From Leuconostoc pseudomesenteroides KCTC 3652 (GTDB taxonomy: Bacteria > Bacillota > Bacilli > Lactobacillales > Lactobacillaceae), in contig NZ_BMBP01000004.1 in assembly GCF_014634745.1 (NCBI RefSeq), forward strand, positions 1 through 64,000: a DNA stretch of 64,000 bases. Reading direction: 5' to 3'. Of this stretch, positions 23,437-61,735 are shown piece after piece (the first letter of the stretch is position 1; each line of letters begins with the position of its first letter). The position numbers and the translations under genes are program-made. Under the pieces are notes generated by a model that saw only the letters and a program-made list of their open reading frames with translations, did no database searches and was not told the origin of the DNA.

Positions 23437-23531
23437 ATTGTAAACAATTAATGGCTGATTCTTTTAGGGAGAATATCATCAAAAACTTGCATTACTAATA
23501 GGTAATTTGATAAGCTATAAACATAAAATAA

Positions 23532-23600
23532 TTGCAGATATAATTGGTTAAAAATGGTGACCTAGTTTCTACCGCACGCCAAAAGGTGCGACTATCGCAA
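23532..23600 (+). ncRNA. Guanine-class purine riboswitch aptamer
   Basis: The core matches xpt-type aptamers in order: P1 TTGCAGATA, J1/2 TATAAT, P2 GGTTA/TGACC with L2 ending ATGG, J2/3 AGTTTCTACC, P3 CGCAC/GTGCG, J3/1 GACTAT, P1 TATCGCAA. The C in GACTAT is the specificity base for guanine, hypoxanthine and xanthine (adenine types have U). Purine salvage genes follow, as expected. Confidence 0.92.
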
Positions 23601-23625
23601 GTTAGTATTCGATTCAAAGACAATG

Positions 23626-35258: not shown

Positions 35259-35269
35259 AAAAATATTCA

Positions 35270-35473
35270 TTACGTTGATAAAGGCAATATTAGGCGTGTA
35301 TCAGAAAGTTAGCGGTTGCTGTGAGCTAATCCGAAAATATTGTTGAGTTACACAACGTTTAGACAATGACGTAGGCCGCGATAAGGCAATATTAAGTGGT
35401 GAGTCCGATGACTTACAATTTAGGTGGTACCACGGTGAAAATCGTCCTATTCTATTCAGATTAGGGCGATTTT
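35270..35473 (+). ncRNA. T-box leader, tyrosine-specific
   Basis: The leader has the invariant T-box AGGTGGTACCACGGTG (35422-35437). A stem I is closed by CGTTG/CAACG, and a TAC codon in the 3' side of its internal loop (GTTACACAACG) matches Tyr. The leader ends in a terminator: AAAATCGTCCTA (35438-35449) with TAGGGCGATTTT (35462-35473). Uncharged tRNA-Tyr should prevent the terminator and allow tyrS expression. Confidence 0.93.
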
Positions 35474-57071: not shown

Positions 57072-57986
57072 TTAAGAATAATCTGTGGTTTTGGTTTGAA
57101 TAGCTTTCGCGCTGGCTGCCAACTTGTCTTGTTCTTCGGGAGTTAGTGGCAAATCAAAGTTAGCGACAACACCGCCACGACCAATAATCGCTGGAGATGA
57201 AATATAGCCATCAAAATCCTCGTTATAGTGAGAAACAATCGCTTCTTTTCGTGCATCAGACAAAATGATTTGTAGCAATGAAACAGCAGCGTGGGCAATG
57301 GCAAAATTCGTATAGCCTTTACCAGAATGAACAGTGAAGCCACCGACGCGAGCGTCATTTTCTAATTTATCCAAATCAAGTGATTTTTCTGCTGCCCACG
57401 TACGGGCATTTTGACCCATAACATTAACTGTTGACCAAGCGGCAAACTGGGAGGCACCGTGTTCACCTAATACATAGCCGTTGACACTACGCGGGTCGAC
57501 ACCTAGCGCTTCGCCAAAGACGCGCTTGAGTCGCGCTGTGTCAAGGTAAGTCCCTGTCCCAATAACTTGTGCACTTGGCAAGCCGGTAGCTTGCTGGTAG
57601 ATACCAGTAATGACATCAACAGGATTACTAATCGCTAACAATACACCATTAAAGCCGACTGCTTTCAAGTCAGCACCGACCTGCTTGGCCATTGGCAAGT
57701 TTGCTTTGAGTTCACCAAAGCGATCACCATCTGGTTTGATGAGATGAATGTGACCAAGTGCGCTAATGACAACATCTGCATCTGCTAAATCAGGGTAATC
57801 ACCAACATGCACATCAATGTGTTTATCCAAAAGACTTGAGGCGTCGCTGAAGTCTAATGCTTCAGAGGCCACTTTTTCTGGTTTCTTATCAATCAGCACT
57901 AGTTCATCAGCTAAACCTTGGGACACAATCAAATGTGCGACGGTTGCGCCCACATGACCGATACCAACTATTCCTACTTTACGCAT
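57072..57986 (-). CDS. L-lactate/L-2-hydroxyisocaproate dehydrogenase family protein
   Basis: This 304-residue protein of the LDH/MDH superfamily has the NAD motif GIGHVGATV (about 7-15), the substrate loop GHIHLIKPDGDRFGELKAN in place of the usual GARQKPGE..R, SNPVD (about 122) and the catalytic histidine in GEHGASQF (about 177). The divergent loop and His lead resemble L-2-hydroxyisocaproate dehydrogenases more than true L-LDH, which fits an organism that makes D-lactate. It reduces branched or bulky 2-oxo acids; this substrate assignment is inferred. Confidence 0.85.
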   Translation of the reverse strand: MRKVGIVGIGHVGATVAHLIVSQGLADELVLIDKKPEKVASEALDFSDASSLLDKHIDVHVGDYPDLADADVVISALGHIHLIKPDGDRFGELKANLPMAKQVGADLKAVGFNGVLLAISNPVDVITGIYQQATGLPSAQVIGTGTYLDTARLKRVFGEALGVDPRSVNGYVLGEHGASQFAAWSTVNVMGQNARTWAAEKSLDLDKLENDARVGGFTVHSGKGYTNFAIAHAAVSLLQIILSDARKEAIVSHYNEDFDGYISSPAIIGRGGVVANFDLPLTPEEQDKLAASAKAIQTKTTDYS

Positions 57987-58076: not shown

Positions 58077-58841
58077 TTAAGCAATAAAATACTTTAGAAT
58101 TTGTTCTTCAGTAAGCATATCTTTATCTTCACCACGAACATCAAGGACAATTTGACCAGCATTTAAAATAATGAGGCGATTACCATATTCTAAGGCATCT
58201 GCTAGATTATGAGTAATCATCAAAGCAGTTAAATGATTCTCCGTGACCTGCTGATTGGTGGCTAACATCAGTTGTTCTGATGTTTTTGGATCGAGCGCTG
58301 CCGTGTGTTCGTCTAGTAAGAGTAGCTCTGGCTTGACGCGCGTTGCCATTAAGAAGCTTAAAGCCTGTCGCTGACCACCAGATAAATCACCGGTGGCTGT
58401 TTGTAGACGTGTATCTAAGTTATTACCCATGGTTTTGGTAATAGTGGCGTACTCATTGAGCTTTTCTTTTGTCAGGCCTCGACTGCGCAAACGACGCTTA
58501 GCGCCTCGTTTTTCAGCGAGCAATAAATTTTCGGCCACAGTCATTCGAGGCGCTGTCCCCATCTTCGGATCTTGAAAAACACGAGCGATATAGTTGGTGC
58601 GTGTTACGGCAGATTCGTTGGCAATGTTGTGATTATGGTGCAAAATTTGACCCGTACTAATCGGTAAATTACCAGCAATCGCGTTGAAAAGGGTTGATTT
58701 TCCAGCGCCGTTGGTGCCCAAAACAGTAATGAAGTCACCGTCAAAAATATCAAGGTTAAGCGATTTGAGAATTTCGGTATTCTCACCGACAGTCACAACG
58801 ACATTTTTAAGTGAAAAAACAGGTTCAGTCATGAGGGGCAA
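58077..58841 (-). CDS. trpZ: Tryptophan ABC transporter ATPase TrpZ
   Basis: This 254-residue ABC ATPase has Walker A VLGTNGAGKST (about 39-49), signature LSGGQRQAL (about 153), Walker B LLLLDEHTAALD (Glu-His instead of Glu-Pro) and the switch His in MITHN. It is the last gene of an SBP-permease-ATPase operon of the TrpXYZ type. The assignment to tryptophan is supported by the Trp-Trp leader peptide upstream. It overlaps the permease gene by 17 bases. Confidence 0.85.
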   Translation of the reverse strand: MPLMTEPVFSLKNVVVTVGENTEILKSLNLDIFDGDFITVLGTNGAGKSTLFNAIAGNLPISTGQILHHNHNIANESAVTRTNYIARVFQDPKMGTAPRMTVAENLLLAEKRGAKRRLRSRGLTKEKLNEYATITKTMGNNLDTRLQTATGDLSGGQRQALSFLMATRVKPELLLLDEHTAALDPKTSEQLMLATNQQVTENHLTALMITHNLADALEYGNRLIILNAGQIVLDVRGEDKDMLTEEQILKYFIA

Positions 58842-59724
58842 CTCCTTTTTTAAGCATAGTGTCTAATTTCAGCGCGTGGCGAATTTGTGGCAACATCATA
58901 GCCAAAGCCAATACAAAGGCAGAAATTAAGTTCAAATCGTTAGTGCTAAAGCCAAGTTGCAAGACAGCCAGCAAGACCAAACGATATAAAATCGAACCAA
59001 CAATCACGGCAACAAGTCGTTCATTTAATGTTAATTCGCCAAAGACAACTTCACCAATAATGATTGAGGCTAGGGCAATAACAATAATACCAATGCCCAT
59101 GTTAATGTCAGCGTAGCCATTATTTTGAGCAATGACAGCCCCGCCAAAAGCGATTAAACCATTTGATAACATCAGTCCCATGATGGTCATCCGATCAGTT
59201 TTGATACCAATTGATTGCGCCATATTAGGGTTATCGCCAGTGGCAATGAAAGCTTGTCCGAGTTCAGTTTGGAGGAAGAAAATCAGTGCGATGGTGATAA
59301 TTGCAATGATGACAGAGCCAACCAATACAGAGTCAAAATATTTAGGCAGGTGCCGCAAGAAAGCGGCCGAAAAGAGTGACTTTTGGTTGAGCAATGAAAT
59401 ATTAGCTGACCCCATAATGCGTAAATTGATGGATAACGAGGCTGTCATAACCAAGATACCAGCTAACAAGATAGGAATTTTTCCTTTTGTGTAAAGTAGA
59501 CCAGTGATTAAACCGGCAATTGCACCAACAATAAAAGCGCTGATGGTTGCCAAATAGGGATTCACGCCGTGGGCAATCATAGCTACAGCAGTAGCTGCGC
59601 CCAATGGAAATGAGCCTTCAACAGTCATATCAGGAAAATTTAAGATACGAAATGTGAGAAAAAGCGCGACCCCTAATACGGCCCAAAGTAGTCCTTGACC
59701 AATGCTTGAAACGATAATACTCAT
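58825..59724 (-). CDS. trpY: Tryptophan ABC transporter permease TrpY
   Basis: This 299-residue membrane protein has about eight to nine hydrophobic segments and the BPD_transp_2-like start GQGLLWAVLGVALFLTFRIL, then FPDMTVEGSFPLGAA (about 31-45), conserved in TrpY/UgpA-like permeases that work with ABC_sub_bind proteins. It overlaps the binding-protein gene by four bases (ATGA). Confidence 0.87.
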   Translation of the reverse strand: MSIIVSSIGQGLLWAVLGVALFLTFRILNFPDMTVEGSFPLGAATAVAMIAHGVNPYLATISAFIVGAIAGLITGLLYTKGKIPILLAGILVMTASLSINLRIMGSANISLLNQKSLFSAAFLRHLPKYFDSVLVGSVIIAIITIALIFFLQTELGQAFIATGDNPNMAQSIGIKTDRMTIMGLMLSNGLIAFGGAVIAQNNGYADINMGIGIIVIALASIIIGEVVFGELTLNERLVAVIVGSILYRLVLLAVLQLGFSTNDLNLISAFVLALAMMLPQIRHALKLDTMLKKGVAPHD

Positions 59725-60719
59725 TTGATTACTTCTCCTTTACTTTCAGCATCTTTGACGAGAGATTGCGGTAGTGTGACTCCTAATAATTTAGCTTGCT
59801 TTTCATTGACAACGGGTACCCCCTTAGTGATGGTTTTGACAGGGTATGTGGCGGGGTTTTTGCCTTTCAAGACTTTAGCAGCCATGATACCGGCTTGGTA
59901 GCCGATGTCATATTGGCTTACTGAGATAGTAGCTAAACCACCGTCTTTAACCATTGTATCAACTGCGGGGATGACTGGAATTTTTTCTTGATTTGTGACA
60001 TTAATTAGGGTTTTCATGGCTGAAGCAACACCGTTATCTTGTGGGGCGTAGACAACATCGACTTGACCTGCCATGGTTTCAGCAATTTGTTGCATATCGT
60101 TGGTTGTGGCAATCGTGTACATTTTGACGTCATAGCCTTGGCTCTTAGCTAAAGTTGCCATTTTTTTGGCATTATATTCGCCACCGTGATCAGAAGTTGT
60201 ATAGATAATGCCAAGTTTTTTGGCAGCTGGGACAACTTCTTTAATCACATCTAAATGCTGTTGAAGAGGTGAATCACCTGACGTACCAGTAATATTTTTA
60301 CCTGGGCGTTGTGTTGATTTTACTAAGCCTCCTCCGACAGGGTCAGTAATGCCGGCCAAAATAACGGGTGTTTGTCCGTCAGCTGTTTTAGCTAAAGATA
60401 AGGCAGCAGGAGACGCAATACCAACGGTTAAATCAGCATTTTCGTTGGCAAATTTCTGTGACATGGTCTTCAAATTAGACTGATCTGCTTGCGCATTTTG
60501 ATAATCAATTTTGATTTTGCCTTTGGTGTAGCCTTCATGAGCCAAACCAGCGACGACACCTTTGTGGATTTGATCCAGTGCCGGATGGGTTACTAGTTGT
60601 AGAATGCCGACCGTTGGTATGTACTGCTTTTTGGCGGTTTGAGGCTTGGATGTTTGGAAAAATGCGACACCCAAAAATGCGACAATGATGATAATGACTG
60701 CTGCTAAACGCTTGTTCAT
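59721..60719 (-). CDS. trpX: Tryptophan ABC transporter substrate-binding protein TrpX
   Basis: This 332-residue protein of the ABC_sub_bind family has an N-terminal hydrophobic segment (about 5-22, AAVIIIIVAFLGVAFF) with no lipobox cysteine, then VGILQLVTHPALDQIHKG (about 38-55), VTHPALD being characteristic of the family. ILAGITDPVGGGLV and the PQDNGVASAM ligand-site segment are also typical. The start is ATG 60719 after GGAG; the frame is open to 60917, but that stretch is the leader RNA. It is the first gene of the operon and is controlled by the Trp leader. Confidence 0.88.
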   Translation of the reverse strand: MNKRLAAVIIIIVAFLGVAFFQTSKPQTAKKQYIPTVGILQLVTHPALDQIHKGVVAGLAHEGYTKGKIKIDYQNAQADQSNLKTMSQKFANENADLTVGIASPAALSLAKTADGQTPVILAGITDPVGGGLVKSTQRPGKNITGTSGDSPLQQHLDVIKEVVPAAKKLGIIYTTSDHGGEYNAKKMATLAKSQGYDVKMYTIATTNDMQQIAETMAGQVDVVYAPQDNGVASAMKTLINVTNQEKIPVIPAVDTMVKDGGLATISVSQYDIGYQAGIMAAKVLKGKNPATYPVKTITKGVPVVNEKQAKLLGVTLPQSLVKDAESKGEVIK

Positions 60720-60748
60720 AATATAATCTCCGTAACTGTTCTCTTCAT

Positions 60749-60790
60749 AAAAAATGACCTTGGGAAGCCACACAAAGCTTTCCAAGGTCA
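60749..60790 (-). terminator. Attenuator terminator of the trpXYZ operon
   Basis: On the minus strand, TGACCTTGG-AAAGC pairs with GGCTT-CCCAAGGTCA-type arms: 60777-60790 with 60755-60768, 14 pairs, loop of eight, followed by U6. It lies 30 bases before trpX. Confidence 0.88.
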
Positions 60791-60797
60791 AAAGAAA

Positions 60798-60858
60798 AGT
60801 CTGCATGGCGTGTTGATTGCCATACAGACTCAAAGTAATGCAAAAGTCGTCGGTATGG
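60798..60858 (-). promoter_or_regulatory. Competing hairpins of the Trp attenuator
   Basis: AGTCTGTATGGC (60819-60830) pairs with GCCATGCAGACT (60798-60809), next to the terminator. The same GUAUGG (60820-60825) can instead pair with CCAUAC (60853-60858), which adjoins ACCGACG (60848-60854). ACCGACG is complementary to CGUCGGU inside the last codons of the leader peptide (60904-60910). A ribosome stalled on the Trp codons would free the second partner and change the fold. Confidence 0.65.
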
Positions 60859-60901
60859 ACAAAACTGATTGTCTCAGCTTGTCCGTTACCGAAAAGCTGA
60901 T

Positions 60902-60949
60902 TTACCGACGCCACCAAGCGTTACTAAATTGTGCTGAAACTTTTTGCAT
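60902..60949 (-). CDS. Trp leader peptide (15 codons)
   Basis: The frame encodes MQKVSAQFSNAWWRR followed by TAA. GGAG lies seven bases before the ATG, and a TTGACA/TATCCT promoter lies just upstream. Two consecutive Trp codons near the end, overlapping the first segment of a set of alternative hairpins that finish in an intrinsic terminator, are the hallmarks of a trp-type attenuator. The genes downstream form a TrpXYZ-like importer. I regard it as a regulatory peptide with no function once made. Confidence 0.8.
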   Translation of the reverse strand: MQKVSAQFSNAWWRR

Positions 60950-60977
60950 GATTTATCTCCGAGTTGTTTATGAAATA

Positions 60978-61006
60978 AGGATACTAAGAATTTGATGAGT
61001 TGTCAA
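60978..61006 (-). promoter_or_regulatory. Promoter of the Trp leader and trpXYZ
   Basis: Minus strand: TTGACA (61001-61006), a 17-base spacer and TATCCT (60978-60983). Confidence 0.8.
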
Positions 61007-61099
61007 GCATATTGTTAAGATAATTATTAAATCTTTTGTGTGATAATACAAACAGTGGTGGCACATCTAGTTAAGAACTGTGTATAAACTAACAAAATC

Positions 61100-61735
61100 T
61101 TATATTTTATTCACAGTACGACGCAACAAGGGGCTAGATTTGCCTGTCAAAATGCCGGCCACTTCTTTGGCAAATTCAGCTCTGTCAACCGGTCGAAATT
61201 TATTGAAGTAGGCGATACTTTTCAAATGGGTCAAGGCCACACCTGGCCAATATGAACTTTGGCGCGCGGGATCAAAAATAATACCCGGATAAACTGCAAA
61301 AGCGCGACCAGGTAGTACTTGCGCCATTTCGCGCTCCACGGCTAGTTTGGCTTTTAAGTAAGGTCGCATAAAGAAGGGTCCAGCGTTTGCTGATATGAAA
61401 AGAAACTTTGGTTTGACTTCCTGAGCTAATAAATGAATCAGTTGATGAGCTGGTTCATAACTGCTGTTTTGGTAGGTTTGATTCTTTAATGGGTTGGGTA
61501 ACAGAATACCAACAGCATCAATTACCCAATCCGCATCGCTCACAATAGGACGTAATTGTTCGCTTTCACTGAGATCAATTGCATGATACTGTGTTTGATC
61601 GCCTGGTTTACCGTTGAATGAGTGTCGTGAAATGCTGTGCACCTCAAATAAGTCGGACGACAAATACTTAATTAAACCCTGACCAACGAAACCAGTACCA
61701 CCTACAATGACAATCTTTTGTTTCTTTTCAATCAT
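61100..61735 (-). CDS. NAD(P)-binding epimerase/dehydrogenase-like protein (atypical SDR)
   Basis: This 211-residue protein has a Rossmann motif IVIVGGTGFVGQGLIKYL (about 8-25) and the layout of NAD(P)H-binding atypical SDR proteins (NDUFA9/YwnB-like). DWVIDAVGILLPNP (about 69) and FLFISANAGPFF (about 110) are conserved. The usual YxxxK pair is replaced by PYLKAKLAVEREM. The reaction is unknown. It follows a 56-residue membrane protein gene by 14 bases, with GGTGAGGT as ribosome site. Confidence 0.82.
   Translation of the reverse strand: MIEKKQKIVIVGGTGFVGQGLIKYLSSDLFEVHSISRHSFNGKPGDQTQYHAIDLSESEQLRPIVSDADWVIDAVGILLPNPLKNQTYQNSSYEPAHQLIHLLAQEVKPKFLFISANAGPFFMRPYLKAKLAVEREMAQVLPGRAFAVYPGIIFDPARQSSYWPGVALTHLKSIAYFNKFRPVDRAEFAKEVAGILTGKSSPLLRRTVNKI

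Follow-up and report, generated by a model that had tools for sequence, protein, structure and literature searches.

A probable leader-peptide attenuator with tryptophan codons upstream of trpXYZ in Leuconostoc pseudomesenteroides and its relatives

Introduction

In the trp and his attenuators of enterobacteria, a leader peptide that contains codons of the regulated amino acid is followed by a chain of mutually exclusive pairings. The leader described here has a long pairing chain that is closest to that of the his leader; it differs from both enterobacterial systems in that it stands before an importer, often has one sensing codon and carries tandem terminators that are linked by an additional pairing (4:5, see below). 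The Rfam families of the enterobacterial trp and his attenuators gave no match at this leader, which lies in a 64,000-nucleotide stretch of the L. pseudomesenteroides KCTC 3652 genome (contig NZ_BMBP01000004.1; the whole stretch is referred to as the window).

Amino-acid leader-peptide attenuation has been proposed or studied in Firmicutes as well, with His leaders in Bacilli, Peptostreptococcaceae and Erysipelotrichales (PMC2965389, PMC9413887) and a Leu/Ile leader in Staphylococcus aureus (PMC5794164); as these sources present them, they differ from the present case in the amino acids and in the genes controlled (biosynthesis, synthetases). The trpXYZ operon of Streptococcus suis, an operon of the same kind, is reported to be under a T-box that responds to the same effective signal (uncharged tRNA-Trp), but there the RNA binds the tRNA directly and without a leader peptide (PMC9382623). 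The initial annotation of the window proposed a Trp leader-peptide attenuator before trpXYZ, a reading that the present analysis supports. It set this against a background in which T-box or TRAP is usual in Gram-positive relatives and ribosome-coupled trp attenuation is the enterobacterial model; the leader indeed has no T-box, but the His and Leu/Ile leaders cited above show that ribosome-coupled leaders were already described or proposed in other Firmicutes. In the open PMC literature, we found no description of the leaders treated here as attenuators.

Results

Leader and importer genes in the window

The promoter, the Shine-Dalgarno (SD) sequence, the 15-codon peptide, the competing pairings and the terminator before trpX were all found where the initial annotation had placed them (Table 1), and the helices that it had named are present; segments a, b and c, the U-tract of hairpin 3:4 and the pairing 4:5 had been overlooked. 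The TrpXYZ-like importer was likewise correctly recognised, as TrpX reaches 436.2 bits against the curated NCBIfam tryptophan-binding model NF041285 (cut-off 390), carries the Gln that is linked to Trp binding in SP1069, and is accompanied by the permease and the ATPase. The protein is 99% identical to the TrpX of L. falkenbergense. Of the 25 promoter-like sites in the 57-64 kb region, this promoter and three others share the best score; shuffled versions of the region contain 17.3 such sites.

Table 1 Features of the leader and of the importer genes in the window
Feature	Position	Strand	Remarks
Promoter TTGACA-N17-TATCCT	60978..61006	-	TTGACA 61006-61001, TATCCT 60983-60978; 10/12 matches
SD GGAG of the leader peptide	60957..60960	-	7 bases 5' of ATG 60949; relatives likewise checked
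Leader peptide ORF, 15 codons, MQKVSAQFSNAWWRR-stop	60902..60949	-	Trp codons 60916-60911
Segment 1 CGUCGGUA (final two codons plus first part of the stop codon)	60903..60910	-	partner segment 2
Segment a CAGCUU	60894..60899	-	partner b
Segment b GGACAAGCUG	60875..60884	-	partner a or c
Segment c UUUUGUCC	60857..60864	-	partner b
Segment 2 CCAUACCGACG	60848..60858	-	partner 1 or 3
Segment 3 AGUCUGUAUGGC	60819..60830	-	partner 2 or 4
Segment 4 GCCAUGCAGACU (60809-60798) and U-tract UUUUCUUUU	60790..60809	-	partner 3 or 5
Second terminator, 14-pair stem with one mismatch, U6	60749..60789	-	loop contains segment 5
Segment 5 GUGUGGC, in the second-terminator loop	60773-60767	-	can pair with segment 4 (GCCAUGC)
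trpX, substrate-binding protein, pocket motif SVSQYDIG	59721..60719	-	ATG 60719; NF041285
trpY-like permease	58825..59724	-	PF02653
trpZ-like ATPase	58077..58841	-	PF00005

The leader peptide ends in ...AWWRR, and the chain of pairing segments runs in the order 1 (the codons after Trp), a, b, c, 2, 3 and 4, to which the Leuconostoc group adds 5. The alternatives 1:2 or 2:3, a:b or b:c, and 3:4 or 4:5 exclude each other. Segment 1 can pair with UACCGACG, and within 2:3, CCAUAC (60858-60853) is complementary to GUAUGG (60825-60820). Since the U-tract directly follows hairpin 3:4, this hairpin may terminate transcription by itself. Within the 2.1 Mb genome, TGGTGGCGNCGGTAA is found at a single place. 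Between a and b the window has another CGGUA (60891-60887), which is shared by 13 of the 15 Leuconostoc rows compared (absent in L006 and L039) and can also pair with, and hide, segment 2.

The same genome has 23 T-box matches, 6 of them above the cut-off. One of the T-boxes (C2:66840-67104) lies directly upstream of trpB (65615-66766), so that tryptophan may be served in parallel by two types of charging sensor. Within the window, a T-box match of 85.2 bits, below the gathering score of 93, is located at 35266-35452 (+), and a purine riboswitch (53.3 bits) at 23516-23613 (+). Behind trpZ, on the same strand, stands a lactate/hydroxyacid dehydrogenase gene (57072-57986, -), which also follows trpZ in 4 of the 11 Leuconostoc loci inspected (L031, L032, L036, L041); that its substrates are aromatic keto acids is our guess.

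Conservation of the leader

TrpX relatives were found in 185 of the 201 sampled Lactobacillaceae genomes, and the regions upstream of trpX were fetched for 90 and a further 12 loci, one per genome, which together represent all 34 genera with a match. The initial annotation had stated in advance that orthologous leaders without the peptide or its Trp codons would speak against it; a Trp-codon leader ORF precedes trpX in 88 of the 90 and 11 of the 12 loci, that is, in 99/102 loci and 33/34 genera. The Trp-Trp motif that it had emphasised is conserved as a Trp codon, but many relatives have one such codon and not two. Most of these ORFs were picked by a script, while seven (L080-L083, L085, L105, L108) failed its SD/motif filter and were identified by inspection of the sequence. 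No leader ORF was seen at L079, L092 and L152 among the 102 loci (L092 and L152 being both loci of genus g13), nor at seven more distant TrpX relatives from Clostridia and other groups (L043-L049).

Common endings of the leader peptides are WWRR and WQSR. A set of 84 distinct ORFs was drawn from 86 leaders, comprising 80 of the 90 and six named Leuconostoc loci; duplicates (L002, L005, L011) and the leaders of genus g29 (L017, L019, L022, L050, L053), which have a different fold, were left aside. The distance from Trp to stop is four codons in 46 of the 84 ORFs and five to eight in the rest, and a promoter-like site stands 5' of 80 of the 86 leaders (a raw count with no shuffled baseline). The codons after Trp are fixed at the nucleotide level (Gln is CAA in 56 of 56 cases and Ser is AGC in 52 of 53), which fits the pairing of segment 1 with segment 2. 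Ahead of Trp it is the amino acid that is fixed, with Asn at position -3 in 62 of the 84 (AAT 47, AAC 15) and Leu at -4 in 44, for which all six codons are in use; the RNA does not account for this amino-acid-level fixation, which suggests a role for the nascent chain.

In other families of Lactobacillales, 17 of 20 loci carry a Trp leader and the other three, all from family f4 (presumably Streptococcus-like), a T-box before the orthologue (two exceeding the cut-off, the third at 73 bits); the T-box is another sensor of uncharged tRNA. The five g29 leaders end in WWWLG or WWWLV and have no clear SD. The start codon of L017 is about 14 bases after a -10-like box, hence it may be leaderless, and by eye its RNA folds into a simple switch of three segments (GCGGGC copies) that has two terminators. 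The leader ORFs of L014 and L020 start 521 and 369 bases before trpX, which suggests that the attenuator and the gene are separated by an insert.

Pairing and covariation

Duplex energies of the cognate segments were compared with those of partners taken from foreign genera in 85 leaders of 30 genera (L105, a short leader, was excluded). The cognate partner is the stronger one in 28/30 genera for 1:2, in 30/30 for a:b and in 24/30 for (c2):3; for b:c this holds in 29/30 when b is set by a alone and in 17/30 with fixed windows. In the WW[RQ][RQ] group (24 leaders, five genera), 4:5 exceeds the mean foreign partner in 23 leaders, and in 23 its energy is matched by at most 5% of shuffles. An earlier scan with overlapping or mis-set windows had given 27/30 for 1:2, 30/30 for a:b, 24/30 for b:c and 21/30 for 2:3, and a sliding-window scan, which slipped by one helix (1:2 14/30), was discarded.

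Covariation was counted on two alignments, A3 (23 leaders) and A1 (24 leaders). On A3, 91.9% of the cells of 1:2, 96.1% of b:c and 92.0% of 2:3 are paired, with double changes in 4 of 7, 8 of 10 and 5 of 10 pairs, respectively; the covarying stems that the initial annotation had expected in the leaders of trpX orthologues are thus present in both 1:2 and 2:3. Shifting the partner by one column lowers the paired fraction of the first A3 set, which includes a misaligned 3:4 (45% paired), from 74% to 51% or 34%, and that of 2:3 from 92% to 27% or 35%. On A1, in which the 1:2 columns of L012 and L013 are shifted, the terminated-state helices (1:2, b:c, 3:4 and the second terminator) have 85-95% of their cells paired (1:2 92%, b:c 95%, 3:4 93%), and the alternative set 77% overall (2:3 89%, 4:5 70%, a:b 79% and 65%), with zero double changes in a:b. 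Further pair types do not exceed shuffles in 2:3 on A3 (398 of 500 equally high) or in the terminated set on A1 (138 of 500), nor do the double-change pairs of the a:b/2:3/4:5 set on A1 (393 of 500). At the sequence level, the exclusive antiterminator pairing covaries and a terminator sits between ORF and gene, the signal being weaker for a:b and 4:5.

By eye, no second terminator hairpin was seen in the eight leaders of genus g2 (L028, L030, L051, L056, L059, L061-L063). Seven of the eight keep a segment 5 complementary to 4 behind the U-tract, a position from which it could no longer stop termination.

Modelled effect of a stalled ribosome

When the RNA was masked as by a ribosome stalled at the Trp codon, the modelled 2:3 pairing, averaged across transcript lengths around segment 3, rose from 0.18 to 0.36 and was higher in 27 of the 30 genera. 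With the ribosome parked at the stop codon it was 0.33, which is close to the Trp-stalled value, hence folding does not fix the polarity of the response. Equilibrium folding of four full leaders formed both terminators (P 0.996-1.000) at any ribosome position; this lack of discrimination between ribosome states speaks against a simple thermodynamic switch, and control must therefore be kinetic.

The trpB motif, RF04312

The trpB motif (RF04312, SRC-39-1), with >900 members, is ranked a strong riboswitch candidate; the gene behind it is mostly that of an uncharacterised ABC transporter and occasionally trpB, and in the account of its discovery a classic attenuator is not excluded (PMC11109978). 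Sixteen of the 17 Trp leaders from outside Lactobacillaceae match RF04312 at E 0.01 or better, and 6 of the 17 are over the cut-off; of 19 Lactobacillaceae leaders tested, 5 match at E 1 and one (L155) is over the cut-off. The leader of the window has no match at E 1 (cut-off 59 bits) and is not a member as defined by the model, from which it has diverged too far. In five alignments, P1 of the motif corresponds to b:c, its free GGC to segment 2 and its terminator to 3:4; an ABC importer is the usual downstream gene of both; and the model begins 3' of the uORF, so that it omits the uORF, a and segment 1.

An SD-led uORF with Trp stands 27-45 bases before the model start in 27 of 30 RF04312 matches, while 0.32 are expected from shuffles, for which the same range, set from the data, was used. 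These are 30 of the 31 matches in 35 genomes that were chosen regardless of leaders, and two of them are from Lactobacillaceae; the 31st lies in L193 and has no locus of its own. Among the three without a Trp uORF, one looks spurious (L194) and two have Tyr/Phe leaders (see below). The members examined were other than the trpB-associated and fusobacterial ones. As far as sequence comparison can tell, RF04312 is the downstream half of the Trp leader device. A phylum-wide search for RF04312 gave 4 matches in 299 genomes, three of which (L163-L165) look spurious, leader-like ORF and importer both being absent. At L166, an RF04312 element has a Trp uORF (KTWQNWHR), and no importer gene was seen within 1.5 kb downstream.

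Tyr/Phe leaders and the binding pocket

Upstream of 20 TrpX paralogs we found 14 Tyr/Phe leaders (e.g. QLNSFYFSYFR), 4 Trp leaders and, in 2 cases, none; L191 and two leaders in L193 bring the Tyr/Phe type to 17. L193 has two importer protein genes in tandem, each with its own leader of the Tyr/Phe type (YYYSYFR, FNFSYFR). In the 15 first-known Tyr/Phe leaders, the own partner is stronger than those of the other members in 12 for 1:2 and in 14 for a:b.

At E 0.1 or better, RF02863 (Enterococcus sRNA 2410) matches 13 of the 14 Tyr/Phe leaders, three of them over the cut-off, and none of the 4 Trp leaders; the leader of the window, which is of the Trp type, has no match and does not belong to this family. 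The name ties RF02863 to sRNA_2410 of E. faecium, an RNA of 195 nt reported with two transcripts on a Northern blot (PMC5593968). There described as an sRNA, it is read here as the putative attenuated leader of a Tyr/Phe-sensing relative.

Three paralogs with a Tyr/Phe leader score 269-367 against NF041285, under the cut-off of 390. Trp is bound in structure 3LFT, Tyr in 6HNI and Phe in 3LKV, and this difference in ligand is attributed to Gln-284 versus Tyr-279 and Tyr-262 (PMC6816091). With an offset of 21, Ala-262, Glu-263 and Tyr-279 fall on the matching letters of the 6HNI chain, and the Gln of SVSQYDIG is the counterpart of Tyr-279 in the alignment. Across 43 aligned proteins, this column has Gln in all 24 Trp-leader proteins and in the 2 T-box ones, and Tyr (16) or Phe (1) in all 17 Tyr/Phe-leader proteins; 11 of the first 30 family loci entered this alignment, and 4 of 13 RF04312 loci (L167, L169, L173, L174) were lost to the frame filter. 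For two proteins, the reading of the pocket preceded the finding of the Tyr/Phe leader, though one of these (L202) already matched RF02863. On the tree the Tyr/Phe group falls entirely on one side of one branch; the change from Trp to Tyr/Phe is thus one event and the match of codon and pocket does not reflect many independent changes.

Discussion

We propose that the leader is very probably a transcription attenuator of the ribosome-mediated type, with charged tRNA-Trp as its signal and trpXYZ under its control. A ribosome with a codon in the A site covers about 12 further bases. Consequently, a ribosome stalled at Trp would cover segment 1, while one parked at the stop codon would cover a too, so that waiting at Trp would leave a free and 2 unhidden. 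When Trp-tRNA is scarce, the ribosome would pause at the Trp codon with segment 1 covered and a exposed; a:b would form, leaving c and 2 free, 2:3 would pair and block 3:4, and the released segment 4 would pair with 5 inside the second terminator, resulting in read-through by RNA polymerase. When Trp-tRNA is ample, the ribosome would reach the stop codon, cover a and then depart; b:c and 1:2 would stack and hide 2, whereupon 3:4 and the second terminator would form and transcription would stop. A Tyr/Phe-codon version of the same device precedes paralogous importers. The sequences show the anatomy of the leader, its conservation, the covariation of the competing helices and the agreement of leader codon with pocket residue, whereas the stall, the order of folding, the polarity and the size of the effect are what we infer in this scheme; because stop-parked and Trp-stalled ribosomes give similar 2:3 pairing and the terminators form at equilibrium, its polarity would rest on ribosome release and folding order. 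The single Trp codon of many leaders, unlike those of textbook attenuators, counts against it, as do the second CGGUA of the window, the covariation measures that shuffles equal, and the loci at which no leader was seen.

An amino-acid metabolite riboswitch with an incidental uORF, along the lines suggested by the discoverers of the trpB motif, would agree with their ranking of the motif as a strong candidate (PMC11109978) and with the presence of a terminator and an antiterminator. It is nevertheless highly improbable, as an SD-led Trp uORF accompanies nearly all of the RF04312 matches (27/30, far above the expectation), segment 2 is the same as the conserved unpaired GGC that follows P1, which is thus accounted for by pairing with uORF codons, and the leader codons and the transporter pocket change to Tyr/Phe together. 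A T-box or TRAP-type leader has a negligible chance of being correct: T-boxes are common in this genome and one controls trpXYZ in S. suis (PMC9382623), but none of the 23 genome matches is at C4:60.7-61.0 kb, the leader is not a member of RF00230, and Rfam gives nothing at E 1 or better in the 60600-61100 region of the window.

The conserved Leu -4 and Asn -3 could also be understood if, as in TnaC, free tryptophan and the nascent peptide arrested the ribosome at or near the stop codon, with expression at high tryptophan; the stop-held ribosome also lifts the modelled 2:3 pairing. We consider this quite improbable, since the Tyr/Phe versions keep the Leu-Asn, which is better explained by codon sensing than by a ribosomal tryptophan site, the T-boxes in the same place in family f4 point to starvation sensing, and the induction of an importer amid plentiful substrate would be less expected. 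Beyond the tryptophan attenuator that we favour, a wider reading is tentative, and we hold it to be possible rather than probable: an order-wide family of aromatic amino-acid sensors, with RF04312 and RF02863 as two branches, in which a conserved nascent Leu-Asn would keep the ribosome waiting at one starved Trp (or Tyr/Phe) codon so that a single codon would suffice, and specificity would shift by a joint swap of the codon and one pocket residue of the importer.

Attenuation of this kind is itself known. What appears to be new is a family of such leaders for Trp and Tyr/Phe importers, which extends over most of the sampled genera of an order and takes in two catalogued RNAs together with relatives beyond the reach of the Rfam model. 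The finding offers a concrete candidate function for an orphan riboswitch candidate, the trpB motif, and for an orphan Enterococcus 'sRNA'. Lactobacillaceae are heavy users of T-boxes, with 291 in 15 genomes (PMC3766115); our results suggest that lactic acid bacteria also use leader-peptide attenuation widely, for the importer of an often essential amino acid, and that the codons of the leader may predict the cargo of the importer.
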